Shown here: one piece after another, positions 59,468-63,107 of the stretch
Position numbering within the stretch: the stretch's first letter is position 1
Layout of the letters: each line of letters starts with the position of its first letter
Assembly: GCF_030687715.1 (NCBI RefSeq)
Contig: NZ_CP117445.1
Location: 4,019,501 to 4,083,500 of the forward strand
DNA length: 64,000 nt
Origin: Pseudomonas sp. FP2196
Lineage (GTDB): Bacteria; Pseudomonadota; Gammaproteobacteria; Pseudomonadales; Pseudomonadaceae
Direction of reading: 5' to 3'
Notes under the pieces: generated by a model
What the model saw: the letters and a program-made list of their open reading frames with translations, nothing else
Told to the model about the DNA's origin: nothing
Database searches by the model: none
Translations under genes and position numbers: made by a program

Positions 59468-59830
59468 TTACGGCTTGATTTCGACGTGATCCAACGCCTG
59501 ATTCACCGCCAACTCACCCAACATCACCACCTGCGCAATGCCCAGCGCGGTTTTACGGTTCGAGGGATCAAGCAGCGCGGCGAAGTTGTTGAGCAACTCG
59601 GAGGCCGAACTCAGGGTTTCACTGGCGTTGGCCAGCAGGGATTCGGTGTCGTACTTCGGATTGGCGAAGTACATGCGTTCGGGCTCGTTGGTGCTGGCCA
59701 TGATCTGGCTGGCGGGAAGGAGATAGTGATCGAGCGCGCGCTCGGCGGCTTCGTGGAGTTTTTTGGAATGGGGGGATTCGTAGGGGGATGCGGGATCGGA
59801 TTCTGGTGGGTTGGGTGTTGGTTTGAACAT
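59468..59830 (-). CDS. DUF6124 (formerly DUF3077) family protein
   Basis: A 120-residue acidic helical protein starting MFKPTPNPPESDPASPYESP, with KLHEAAERALDHYL (~24-37), ESLLANASETLSSASELLNN and VVMLGELAVNQALDHVEIKP. This matches a family that is abundant in Pseudomonas and of unknown function, by recall. AGGAG about nine bases upstream fixes ATG 59830. The open frame continues upstream to 60034, but that part reads as leader. It is preceded by a long leader with distant complementary arms. Confidence 0.8.
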   Translation of the reverse strand: MFKPTPNPPESDPASPYESPHSKKLHEAAERALDHYLLPASQIMASTNEPERMYFANPKYDTESLLANASETLSSASELLNNFAALLDPSNRKTALGIAQVVMLGELAVNQALDHVEIKP

Positions 59831-59905
59831 GGTGTAACTCCTGACGGATAAACGAAAAGGAGCCATCACTCTCGCTACCAAACGAAGGGTGGAGGCCATA
59901 CGCAG

Positions 59906-60036
59906 GTTGGTAGACCGGTCGTCAGGAACCCCGGCGCATCCGAAGACGCCCCGCGCATGACCACCATAAAACGAAGACGAGAAACGCCCTCGAAAGACAG
60001 TAGTCTTGTGCTTCTGACGGAGACGGGCTACCAAAC
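59906..60036 (-). ncRNA. Candidate structured leader of the DUF6124-type gene
   Basis: Within the minus-strand leader TTGGTAG (59907-59913) pairs with CTACCAA (60028-60034), and inside it CGTCAG (59920-59925) pairs with CTGACG (60014-60019). A further 8-bp hairpin GGTCACTG/CAGTGACC lies at 60039-60058. Nested complementary arms over 130 nt suggest a folded RNA. It has not been tested and no known RNA family is assigned. Confidence 0.4.
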
Positions 60037-60152
60037 CCGGTCACTGGTTTTCAGTGACCCAGGAACGATAGAACCCGCGAGCTAGACGCACAAGCCGGCG
60101 GATTCTGTCTTAGGTGTAGGGGGAGGCGCAAGGTGTTGTAGGGCGTGGGTGG
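59964..60152 (-). repeat. Direct repeat, copy 1 (DUF6124 leader region)
   Basis: Begins CCATAAAACGAAGACGAGAA and runs to about GCAAGGTGTTGTAGGGCG. It matches 61421-61607 in the same orientation over nearly 190 bp with scattered differences. Confidence 0.85.
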
Positions 60153-60365
60153 CGCTACGTAGCCGCAATTAAACAGAAGTAGAATTGTTGTTGATATCGT
60201 ATAGGTCAGTTGAAAAAAAGGCTTCACGGTATGCTGAAAATTAAATCCCGTCCCGTTTTGCAACAAGGACAGATGAAAGCGCTGCCTAAAGTTAGCAGTT
60301 TGATGGACAAAACAATGCGAAAACGCTAAATATAGCCTTCGCATTTTCCATGCTTGGATAGCCAT

Positions 60366-61229
60366 ATGACTAGCGAAACCCCAACTGCGAGTTCCGACAC
60401 GGTAGAACGATCGTTCGCTGACTTTTTAGAAGCATCGCCACCTAACCAGATAGCTATCATCAACGATCTGATGGAGAAGAAATGGGATGGGGGAAATCAG
60501 TACTACTTCTTAAAAACTCCGGAAATACAAATTCATTGCCCGGACGAGTCTTGCAATGGAATAAGATTTCACCGATGCGTAGACGGTCACAAACTCGCAC
60601 CTACTGAAGCAAAACCAGCGAACTATTTCATAGTCTATCGTTGTTCCAACTGCACGAGACATGTAAAAAGTTTTGCAATCTCCGCATATCGCGACTCTTT
60701 AGTATCAGGCACACTAGTTAAATTTGGAGAAAACCCCGTATTTGGCCCTCCTGTTGCATCAAGACTATTAAAGCTAATCGGACCTGATCGAGAGAACTTC
60801 CTTAAAGGAAGAAGATGTGAAAACCAAGGACTTGGCATTGGAGCTTTTGTTTATTATCGGCGAGTGGTAGAGCATCAAAAAAATCGAATATTCAAAGAGA
60901 TCGTAAAAGTATCCGAAAAAATAGGCGCTCCCACTAACAAAATAAACATTCTAAATGCTGCATTAGAGGAGACACAATTTACAAAAGCCCTAGATATGGC
61001 AAAAGATGCGATGCCTGATAGCCTGCTCATCAATGGGCACAGTCCTCTAAAACTTCTTTATAGAGCGCTGAGCGAAGGGATCCACAATCTTTCTGACGAG
61101 GAATGTTTAGGTTTTGCGTCCAGTGTACGAATCGTTCTTGGTGAGCTATCAGACCGGCTTTCACAAGCGCTCAAGGATGAGGCTGAAATCACAAACGCCC
61201 TCAACCGATTGCTAGCCCCCACCAAATGA
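60366..61229 (+). CDS. Unrecognised AT-rich gene with zinc-ribbon-like Cys pairs
   Basis: A 287-residue soluble protein. Cysteines at 58, 63, 71, 93 and 96 (HCPDESCNG, RCSNC) could form a zinc ribbon. The segment GIGAFVYYRRVVEHQKNRIF (~158-177) followed by helices resembles DUF4145-like proteins of phages and defence loci, but I cannot name a family with confidence. Base composition and codon use are much more AT-rich than the core genes. The ribosome binding site is poor. A hairpin AATGCGAA/TTCGCATT (60314-60346) precedes it. Likely acquired by transfer. Confidence 0.7.
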   Translation: MTSETPTASSDTVERSFADFLEASPPNQIAIINDLMEKKWDGGNQYYFLKTPEIQIHCPDESCNGIRFHRCVDGHKLAPTEAKPANYFIVYRCSNCTRHVKSFAISAYRDSLVSGTLVKFGENPVFGPPVASRLLKLIGPDRENFLKGRRCENQGLGIGAFVYYRRVVEHQKNRIFKEIVKVSEKIGAPTNKINILNAALEETQFTKALDMAKDAMPDSLLINGHSPLKLLYRALSEGIHNLSDEECLGFASSVRIVLGELSDRLSQALKDEAEITNALNRLLAPTK

Positions 61230-61287
61230 TCTCTAGACCTTACATCTTAATCACTGGCTTATAATTTTCGCCTCATCTACAAGGAAT

Positions 61288-61412
61288 GAAATAGGGACGG
61301 ATTTATCTTCCAAAACAGCGAAAAAATAAATCCGTCTCTATTTCGTTTTGCAGGCGACAAAGTGGACGGATTTATTTACTGCCAAGCCCTATCTATCTAC
61401 ATAAATCCGTCA
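61288..61412. repeat. Four inverted GACGGATTTAT units
   Basis: GAAATAGGGACGGATTTAT (61288-61306) and its near-perfect inverted copy (61326-61344), then GGACGGATTTAT (61364-61375) and ATAAATCCGTC (61401-61411), form two consecutive hairpins. They are unlike the REP families in the core DNA. With copy 2 of the leader repeat they fill the gene-free stretch 61230-61741. Confidence 0.7.
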
Positions 61413-61420
61413 CCTTTTTC

Positions 61421-61607
61421 CCATAAAACGAAGACGAGAAACGCCCTTGCAAGAAAGTAGTCTTGTGCATCTGTCGGAAGACGGGCTACCAAACCCGATC
61501 AATGCTTTCAGCGACACAGGAACGATAGAACCCGCGCGCTAGAGGCACAAGCCGGCGGATTCTGTCTTGGGTGTAGGACGGCGCAAGGTGTTGTAGGGTT
61601 TGAGCGG
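61421..61607 (-). repeat. Direct repeat, copy 2 (orphan DUF6124 leader)
   Basis: Matches 59964-60152 in the same orientation, including TTTGGTAGCCCGTCTTCCG on the minus strand. The second arm of the stem and the DUF6124 gene are missing. The sequence changes abruptly at 61420. Confidence 0.85.
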
Positions 61608-61741
61608 CAACACTAAGCGTGTTTTAAACAAAATAAATTTAATGTTTAAATCCGTTTTAATGAGTTGATAAATCACTCTATCCTTAGCAAAAATCCGCCA
61701 ACGCCTCACTTTAACAAGCCAACCGACACCTCTCTATTATT

Positions 61742-62851
61742 TTAACCAGCTAACAATTTAGTTAGCAGTGCTCCGATGACGCCACCAAAAATCGCGGAGC
61801 TTATGACTGCAACAATCTCAGCAGATTTAAATGACGCCTGATTTACATGTTGAGCCCAACTCAGAATGGACTCAATTGGGTAATCGGGACTTTGCTCATC
61901 GCGCCCAACCAAATATCGTTCAAAATACCTTGAAACACCCTTACCATAGGTCGATTTTAGAAGTGAATTATTCTGCTGCTGTTGTAATTCAAACTCCACA
62001 CGCAAGGAATATGCATCCGAAATCAATTGCTTTGAACCAGTATGGATCTTGAATCTTTCCAAAACACGAAATATCGAAAAATCGGCATCGACAGCTTTCT
62101 TAAGAGCGGACCAAGCTGTCGTTATGTCTCTCCATTTTTTCCCCATACGGACGCGTGCGCGTTGAAGTTCATAAAACAGACTCATCTCATCATCAATCAG
62201 CCGATATACCATGCTCATTTCCCTATCACTTGGTGATGAGGACCCATTACTTACCGCAAAAACAAATTTATCGTAGCCTTTTTCAACATTAACTTCGAGC
62301 GCTACATCTCCACCGTTTTCCACATCACCTTTAACAAAAAAATCTCCGTGAAAAGGCGATGGTCCGATGCACTCGAAGGTCACCCCATTACTCACTCGCT
62401 TAAACTCTCGCTCTAAAAACTCGCGCAACACTCGTACTGACTGAGAGGGCGAGTCGTTTTTAGAGCCCACACTCTCGACAAAAACAAGCGGACCATAATA
62501 TTTGTTAAGCATTTGAACCTTGAAGTGCTCGACTCCAGAACGAAGATAATCTTCGGGCTCTGAAATCACTTCAGCCTGCACCCTACGAGGAATATACAAA
62601 TCAAACTTTATAACCAGCAACTCAACATAGGGGGAATATGCACCACCAGACAACTCAGGTGGACTTTCGATTAATTCATATTCATAATCAAACTTCTCAT
62701 AATACTTAACTTCGAGCTCGCTAACTGATGACAGTGAGTTCAGCGCGACTTTCACAGCCTCAACATACTCTGATTTCTTAAACTTAGACGGAACACCCGG
62801 ATTATACCCAAAGTGAAAACAGCCAACACCAAATGCGCGAAGACTAGACAT
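61742..62851 (-). CDS. Unrecognised AT-rich gene with C-terminal membrane anchor
   Basis: A 369-residue protein, soluble for ~340 residues (FGVGCFHFGYNPGVPSKF, DYLRSGVEHFKVQMLNKYYG, SDREMSMVYRLIDDEMSLFY), ending in one hydrophobic helix EIVAVISSAIFGGVIGALLT. No family is recognised. AT-rich composition and rare-codon use contrast with neighbours. ATG 62851 with GGAA eight bases upstream is chosen over a TTG at 62869. A tail-anchored cytosolic domain is the likely topology. A role in defence is only a guess from location next to dusA and another orphan. Confidence 0.65.
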   Translation of the reverse strand: MSSLRAFGVGCFHFGYNPGVPSKFKKSEYVEAVKVALNSLSSVSELEVKYYEKFDYEYELIESPPELSGGAYSPYVELLVIKFDLYIPRRVQAEVISEPEDYLRSGVEHFKVQMLNKYYGPLVFVESVGSKNDSPSQSVRVLREFLEREFKRVSNGVTFECIGPSPFHGDFFVKGDVENGGDVALEVNVEKGYDKFVFAVSNGSSSPSDREMSMVYRLIDDEMSLFYELQRARVRMGKKWRDITTAWSALKKAVDADFSIFRVLERFKIHTGSKQLISDAYSLRVEFELQQQQNNSLLKSTYGKGVSRYFERYLVGRDEQSPDYPIESILSWAQHVNQASFKSAEIVAVISSAIFGGVIGALLTKLLAG

Positions 62852-63107
62852 ATTTTTGTTCCATCGCAATCCCTAGAGCATATAAATTACTAATTTGCCA
62901 ACACTAAGTCTAGCGTTCTTCAATCTTTAAACTAATCGTAAGATTCCTCCTCACAACCGATGATTAATGTCTTGATCCCGGATTGAGCAGATGGATCTGC
63001 GTTAATCGTGCCGCCATTGATTTCAATTGCAAGACTCTTCTGAGCACTGCATCTCGTTCTGATAAACTCCCACCACCTCCCAGCCTCACCCAATCCAGAA
63101 CCGCCCA

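Follow-up and report, generated by a model that had tools for sequence, protein, structure and literature searches.

One complete and one relic C4 antisense RNA unit in a duplicated leader of Pseudomonas sp. FP2196, probable members of a large set of mostly self-regulating units

A stretch of 64,000 nucleotides (nt) from the chromosome of Pseudomonas sp. FP2196 (contig NZ_CP117445.1, positions 4,019,501 to 4,083,500), here called the window, contains a duplicated leader, one copy of which precedes a gene of the DUF6124 family. Our analysis makes it very probable that a complete C4 antisense RNA unit and the relic of a second one are present in the window, both belonging to a family of approximately 41 dispersed, mostly self-regulating units on this chromosome. 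At the sequence level, this reading is carried by the identity of the C4 RNA, the layout of the unit, the complementarity of own pairs, covariation in the fold, copy number and purifying selection. An earlier note on this DNA had proposed a leader RNA folding on itself; its observation is confirmed, and its interpretation is partly supported.

Scanning the whole window with Rfam at curated cut-offs gave two matches, both on the minus strand and both in the repeated leader: a C4 antisense RNA (RF01695) at window positions 59885..59971 with 75.6 bits against a cut-off of 45, and a c4-a1b1 element (RF03163) at 60020..60071 with 50.1 bits against 46.7. The controlled gene on the same strand (59468..59830) encodes 120 amino acids (aa) starting with MFKPTPNPP and is indeed of the DUF6124 type, as had been noted (PF19619, 69 bits, cut-off 27). 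Read 5' to 3' on the minus strand, the order is promoter-like sequence, a1, b1, C4 (b' and then a'), a2, b2, and the ATG of the DUF6124 gene. The motifs TTGGTAG and CGTCAG both occur twice, once upstream of C4 in a1 and b1 and once downstream in a2 and b2. Within C4, segment a' (TCTACCAACC, 59905..59914, minus strand) forms runs of 7 bp both with a1 (TTTGGTAG, 60028..60035, minus strand) and with a2, which has the same sequence and starts 3 nt after the C4 end (59875..59882, minus strand). Segment b' (TTCCTGACG, 59920..59928, minus strand) forms a run of 6 bp with b1 (CCGTCAG, 60014..60020, minus strand), which straddles the 3' boundary of the Rfam a1b1 match with nearly all of its length beyond it, and a run of 8 bp with b2 (CCGTCAGGAG, 59838..59847, minus strand). 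The latter starts at +38 from the C4 end and overlaps the Shine-Dalgarno sequence AGGAG. Besides the covariance-model score and the upstream a1/b1 element, the window unit therefore has a'/b' segments that can pair with a2/b2, where the ribosome binding site of the downstream gene lies. Double (compensatory) changes occur in 15 of the 20 predicted pairs of the C4 fold, in agreement with the structured RNA that the note had suggested for this leader.

Specificity was assessed by the longest Watson-Crick run between a' and the a2 stretch and between b' and the b2 stretch, in own and foreign combinations of the 41 C4 sequences of the genome. Mean runs were 6.85 bp (own) versus 4.25 bp (foreign) for a'-a2 and 7.02 versus 4.91 bp for b'-b2; none of 10,000 permutations reached the own value in either case, and the swapped controls revealed no difference (4001/10000 and 9885/10000 permutations). 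The upstream targets gave 7.12 versus 5.26 bp for a1 and 6.05 versus 4.79 bp for b1 (0/10000 each). Both downstream runs comprised at least 6 bp in 32 of 41 own pairs versus 44 of 1640 foreign pairs, and the window C4 passes this two-segment threshold with no foreign target. An earlier, cruder pairing measure agreed (0/5000 permutations). A second set of 108 loci, composed of 80 named DUF6124 loci and 28 of 65 loci from IMG/VR, comprised 58 distinct loop pairs and gave 50/58 own versus 174/3306 foreign pairs at the same threshold. Most units have their own a/b combination; the copies would therefore mostly regulate themselves and not each other. Judged by these sequence comparisons, most C4 units appear to be specialized for silencing the small gene next to them.

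By analogy with phage P1 and from the layout, we infer how such a unit would work. One leader transcript would run through a1/b1, C4, a2/b2 and the gene, and C4 is probably cut out of it, as in P1. Pairing of a'/b' with a2/b2 would mask the Shine-Dalgarno sequence and keep the DUF6124 gene silent, so that the unit silences itself, while pairing with a1/b1 of the same leader probably tunes C4 formation. Insulation between the units would be expected in the cell.

The genome of FP2196 (6.24 Mb, one contig) contains 41 C4 matches, all above cut-off, 42 a1b1 matches (19 above and 23 below cut-off), and 39 DUF6124 matches. The a1b1 element is located 25-63 nt upstream in 39 of the 41 C4 cases, and in 33 of 41 the next downstream gene is a DUF6124 match. 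The genes behind the other eight are two DUF3077 genes, one Bro-N antirepressor-type gene, one methyltransferase gene, and four frames without Pfam match. Three a1b1 matches lack C4, namely the second copy in the window, a transposase-split unit, and a unit at 760386 where both C4 and the usual protein start are lost. Six DUF6124 matches do not directly follow a C4 in gene order. The split unit is L098 (G000:C1:3851639-3853630), where an element with a Mutator-family transposase gene (PF00872, 409 bits) interrupts C4; the Bro-N antirepressor-type gene, of 175 aa, follows the unit L110 (G000:C1:6006892) and is a link to the phage arrangement.

Within the genus, C4 was found in 184 and DUF6124 in 158 of 199 genomes. 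The per-genome counts of this survey are floors, because at most 20 C4 and 29 DUF6124 candidates were scored per genome. A closer count in 16 genomes, hand-picked as 14 with many matches and two with one, gave 24-47 C4 in the 14 and a single C4 in each of the two. Among 229 genomes of the class, C4 occurs in 12 including FP2196, the other 11 having 1-4 each (18 candidates scored per genome), and DUF6124 was matched in FP2196 alone. Named homologues (120 listed of 1686) are nearly all from Pseudomonas, e.g., P. fluorescens, P. koreensis, P. viridiflava and P. chlororaphis; one is named Streptomyces. In the best 80 of 514 confirmed DUF6124 loci from other genomes, C4 lies ahead of the gene in all 80, its end 45-55 nt before the ATG, and C4, a2/b2 and gene are found together in 80/80. 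Tandem arrangements were observed as well: three C4 without a convincing gene behind them in L294 (G009:C21:16214-16512), and two C4 followed by a third unit in L295 (G009:C58:321065-321241). These tandem C4 RNAs may act only in trans.

Several results weigh against this picture. Nine of the 41 own pairs stay under the two-segment threshold, 44 foreign pairs exceed it, and b'-b1 matches are weaker than those of the other segment pairs; insulation is therefore imperfect. The window target itself is matched by two foreign C4 (1374111-, 4923196+), and in the second set one control (a' versus the b2 stretch) was slightly raised (19/5000 permutations). Furthermore, the eight C4 mentioned above have no DUF6124 gene behind them, a small number of DUF6124 copies seem disrupted (4804595+, 3524570-), and the analysis of selection took 32 of the 39 copies. 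In that analysis, the ratio of nonsynonymous to synonymous substitution rates (dN/dS) was below 1 in 333 of 333 filtered pairs (of 496; the pairs are non-independent), with a median of 0.40. On this sequence measure, the tested DUF6124 proteins are under purifying selection.

The comparison of units suggests how specificities change. In stretches from the genomes G036, G098 and G019, C4 is 99-100% identical to the window C4 and the b'/b2 pair is that of the window. The G011 unit (L145) keeps the a type and has a different b'; by eye, its b2 can pair with that b' at ten positions, including two G-U pairs. All four stretches adjoin the start of dusA; the MCP gene is missing from the G019 stretch. 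Within a four-unit cluster, the units at 3527786 and 3533094 are 0.92 identical in the coding and 0.82 in the promoter region, and their RNA modules show values of 0.59 (a1b1 plus linker), 0.61 (C4) and 0.51 (a2b2). Unit 3533094 and the window unit, in turn, reach 0.82 in C4 and 0.73 in a2b2, with 0.60 in the coding and 0.55 in the promoter region. This mosaic suggests that C4 was exchanged between units together with a2b2. The a1b1 plus linker of 3533094 is close neither to that of 3527786 nor to that of the window unit (0.53), which makes it less likely that the latter donated the complete module in one clean exchange. For 31 of the 41 units, nearest C4 and nearest coding region belong to different units, with many distances near-tied. 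New specificities would arise by mutation and probably also by exchange of RNA modules between units.

C4 is known from phages, and the chromosomal units might be prophage leftovers without any function in the host today. In favour of this, a Bro-N antirepressor-type gene follows one of the units, and DUF6124 occurs with C4 in IMG/VR contigs: 65 DUF6124 loci were found there, of which those near contig ends may be host DNA. C4 was present in 17 of 17 scanned loci with DNA on both sides (in five of them approximately 550 nt ahead of the matched gene, a gap that in L259 is filled by another DUF6124-like frame), and 58 of the 65 loci contain a match of at least 74 bits to a custom C4 model. The L259 unit adjoins tail-protein and tape-measure genes and the L271 unit is near a major head gene; in both, the C4 unit gives the impression of an extra gene within a structural region. 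In many IMG/VR loci, an additional, weaker match resembling C4 is found some 500 nt upstream of the main one (e.g., L286 3342-3433 and L282 3343-3434). The remnant explanation is nevertheless improbable. A relative of the window DUF6124 protein was found in one of 50,697 phage records, at the record edge, and in none of 72,556 plasmid records, the 14 many-copy genomes of the 16 picked contain 24-47 copies each, purifying selection was found across the 32 copies tested, and C4, a2/b2 and gene stay together in all of the 80 best loci.

The second copy bears on another alternative. The leader is duplicated in direct orientation about 1.45 kb apart, just as originally described: direct repeats of 72, 58, 54 and 30 nt are in register and spaced 1455-1458 nt, and 59964-60178 and 61421-61633 share 182 of 216 aligned columns, far above chance. 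The repeat is thus real, with a length nearer 215 bp than the approximately 190 bp given before. Copy 2 (61421..61633, minus strand) comprises the promoter region and a decayed a1b1 (31.9 bits at 61478-61528), without C4 and without gene. As had been pointed out, it keeps one arm and has lost the gene: a1 (TTTGGTAG) is retained, b1 is altered from CCGTCAG to CCGACAG, and the homology extends just into the first bases of C4, where a palindromic repeat abuts. The closest relative of copy 2 in the DNA compared is copy 1 (89.5%), which itself is nearer to counterparts in other genomes (92-93%) than to copy 2. Searching four relatives' stretches (L144-L147, of which L146 alone covers the full span from unit 1 to dusA) with copy 2 by blastn matched unit 1 and found copy 2 absent; L146 has a palindrome of the same kind between unit 1 and dusA. 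From sequence comparison, we interpret copy 2 as what is left of a duplicated unit, whose C4 and gene would have been lost.

Alternatively, copy 2 could be a working decoy, giving a short promoter-a1b1 RNA that titrates the C4 of copy 1. Its promoter-like region is preserved, as are a1 and the hairpin ahead of C4, and its low a1b1 score is not decisive, as 23 of the 42 matches are below cut-off and some are lower than copy 2. Yet b1 is changed, the hairpin is shorter (6 pairs versus 8), and the copy is missing from the relatives' stretches, where only unit 1 was found, so that we give a decoy little probability compared with a relic.

A new cis-acting leader of the riboswitch or attenuator type, with arms folding on each other in one transcript, was the idea put forward at first. 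The arms TTGGTAG/CTACCAA and CTGACG/CGTCAG are present exactly as described within one leader, and a terminator-like hairpin with a T run stands immediately ahead of C4 in both copies. However, for each arm a further target exists close to the ribosome binding site: a2 and b2, the latter holding the Shine-Dalgarno sequence, are absent from the earlier note, and own-pair matching extends to a2/b2 as well as a1/b1. Each arm pair (a1/a' and b1/b') consists of an antisense segment and its target, an arrangement already known, and the two do not form one nested hairpin. Terminator-like sites in the region number three versus 3.3 in shuffles. The leader contains arms that pair with more than each other and belongs to known antisense families; because two Rfam families match above their cut-offs, the RNA is not new. 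A structured RNA linked to DUF6124 stands (C4 in 80/80 of the best 80 of 514 confirmed loci), a fold acting in cis does not, and we regard this alternative as very improbable.

Least probable of all, the resident C4 repertoire could be an antisense immune memory silencing C4-type genes of incoming phages, in favour of which stand C4-DUF6124 units in virus-type contigs, the tie of C4 to P1/P7 heteroimmunity in the part of PMC12197685 concerned with it, and pairing of phage C4 with host targets in 34 of 738 cases (4.6%, above the foreign rate within the genome; 21 of 65 viral loci, 18 distinct), but the direction that matters, host C4 against phage targets, is at background (21/738, 2.8%, versus 44/1640, 2.7%).

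Returning to C4 units as mostly self-regulating switches, we turn to their remaining parts and neighbours. A promoter-like sequence TTGTGC-17-TATCGT (60065..60093, minus strand) was recognized by eye and agrees with 3 and 4 of 6 consensus bases; it scored under the threshold of a consensus promoter scan, which did not report it. In the alignment, judged by eye, this site and approximately 100 nt upstream are conserved across many paralogous units. The upstream stretch, in the window 60072-60178, reads GTTTAAA ... CTACAACACCTTGCGCC ... CGCCAGAATCCGCCGGCTTGTGCG and is possibly a site for a shared regulator. Some C4 units have a second promoter type (by eye).

The DNA between the copies is AT-rich with an orphan gene, as described originally (GC content 0.42 versus 0.60 in the window). 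The gene (60366..61229, plus strand) encodes 287 aa and matches the phage protein family phrog_25239 (E 1.2e-78). A search for relatives gave 30 pattern matches in genome contigs, none of them confirmed, and no pattern match in viral contigs; it has no Pfam match. Two palindromes with GACGGATTTAT, the inverted repeats I1 and I3, abut copy 2 (61285..61420). All four exact occurrences of GACGGATTTAT in the window, versus 0.03 expected, lie in them, and they may be mobile repeat elements. A gene of 375 aa between copy 2 and dusA (61742-62869) has no Pfam, PADLOC or PHROG match. PADLOC gave no match for DUF6124 or the orphan gene either. The cargo upstream of dusA varies among relatives' genomes, some of it prophage-like by eye. 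An array serving as insertion or recombination site had been suggested: tandem units and insertions do occur, and a dedicated site found no support. In this region, G019, G011 and G098 show only short dusA-start matches after the unit and other DNA beyond, which is phage-like by eye in G098.

The DUF6124 protein is predicted to have a helix near its N-terminus and a helical hairpin, modelled with confidence, at 62-114 (mean pLDDT of the model 74.9); a fold search with this model returned no PDB match at E<=0.001 (best E 1.1). Among 32 aligned copies, M1, K3, P6 and P8 are invariant, and the common start is M-x-K-x-[TV]-P-[ND]-P-P. This motif is partly due to selection, as the script favoured start codons giving it, and seven copies, several of them without the motif in the frame read, were left out of the alignment. 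The proline codons vary; the motif is therefore a peptide feature, and a codon-level RNA signal was rejected. At 11 of 27 C4 sites in 14 stretches (G009, G061, G134), a small frame with the same start follows C4 after 44-55 nt; all 11 are among the 21 G009 sites, and one begins with TTG. None of five such frames scanned exceeded a Pfam cut-off, two having weak DUF3077 or DUF6124 scores. In G009, G134 and G061, C4 lies within 700 nt upstream of 27 of 33 DUF3077 matches, a count that leaves out the three DUF3077 rows of FP2196. With C4 ahead of DUF3077 and other small frames, it therefore serves more than one small-protein family. A protein behind C4 in L300 (1572) shows a sub-threshold match to bDLD2, a bacterial death-like domain (E 0.0079, 17.1 versus 25 bits), which is a lead only.

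A wider reading, which we offer tentatively and consider rather unlikely as a whole, is that Pseudomonas chromosomes carry dozens of mutually insulated C4 switches, each silencing a small helical protein and most of these proteins sharing the start M-x-K-x-[TV]-P-[ND]-P-P, that selection for separate control drives the exchange of RNA modules, and that the proteins are effectors released when the supply of C4 fails, e.g., upon phage takeover or when a unit enters a naive cell. It is as an immunity RNA of two E. coli phages that C4 is mainly known, and here dozens of paralogous units occur in one bacterium, so that what was a curiosity of phages would become a collection of separate switches across a whole genome. 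The matched loops and targets constitute a natural data set for the divergence of antisense specificity with little cross-talk, and the units point to what may regulate DUF6124 and DUF3077, two uncharacterised families, and to how their expression is likely to be controlled.

Among known systems, a gene silenced by its own RNA recalls type I toxin-antitoxin systems, where an antisense RNA silences a small gene. Both consist of a self-contained gene with its silencing RNA and occur as dispersed paralogues; unlike them, C4 lies in a same-strand leader, and the protein has 120 aa and is predicted to be helical. Chromosomal Rfam C4 matches also appear in RNA tables for Xylella fastidiosa strain De Donno (two C4, PMC12189769) and Burkholderia cenocepacia (one C4, in one transcriptional unit with isrK, PMC4603805), whose RNA-table passages, in contrast, contain no large C4 family. 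C4 and c4-a1b1 are both in the RNA list of Weinberg et al. 2010 (PMC2864571), the supplement of which may mention Pseudomonas copies; among the matches listed in the literature searched, no title deals with a multi-copy chromosomal C4 family. DUF6124 is not named in that literature, and DUF3077 is mentioned there by one paper, in which furfural-tolerant P. putida carries a change in a DUF3077 pseudogene (PMC9630843).

The closest likeness is to immI (c4-icd-ant) of phages P1 and P7, treated in passages of PMC8201110, PMC8546580 and PMC12197685, the last of which links C4 to heteroimmunity. Both share the order promoter, a1, b1, C4, a2, b2 and gene, with b2 right ahead of the start codon. In the P1 record AF234172, a2, b2 and the icd ATG lie at +4, +33 and +51 from the C4 end, and a1 and b1 at -88 and -74 from the C4 start; the window unit has +3, +38, +55, -64 and -49, the Rfam C4 element exceeding the annotated P1 RNA by ten bases. 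Order and spacings are near those of immI, and the anatomy in the window is therefore that of a C4 unit. It is not a P1-type immI operon: P1 controls icd/ant, whereas the gene in the window unit is DUF6124, and the P1 Icd and window DUF6124 proteins have no PHROG family in common (scan at E<=0.1). In contrast to P1 and P7, 41 C4 matches with many private specificities occur on one chromosome. The C4 RNA itself is already known; what is new, within the literature searched, is a large repertoire of C4 units with many specificities, associated with DUF6124 and DUF3077.

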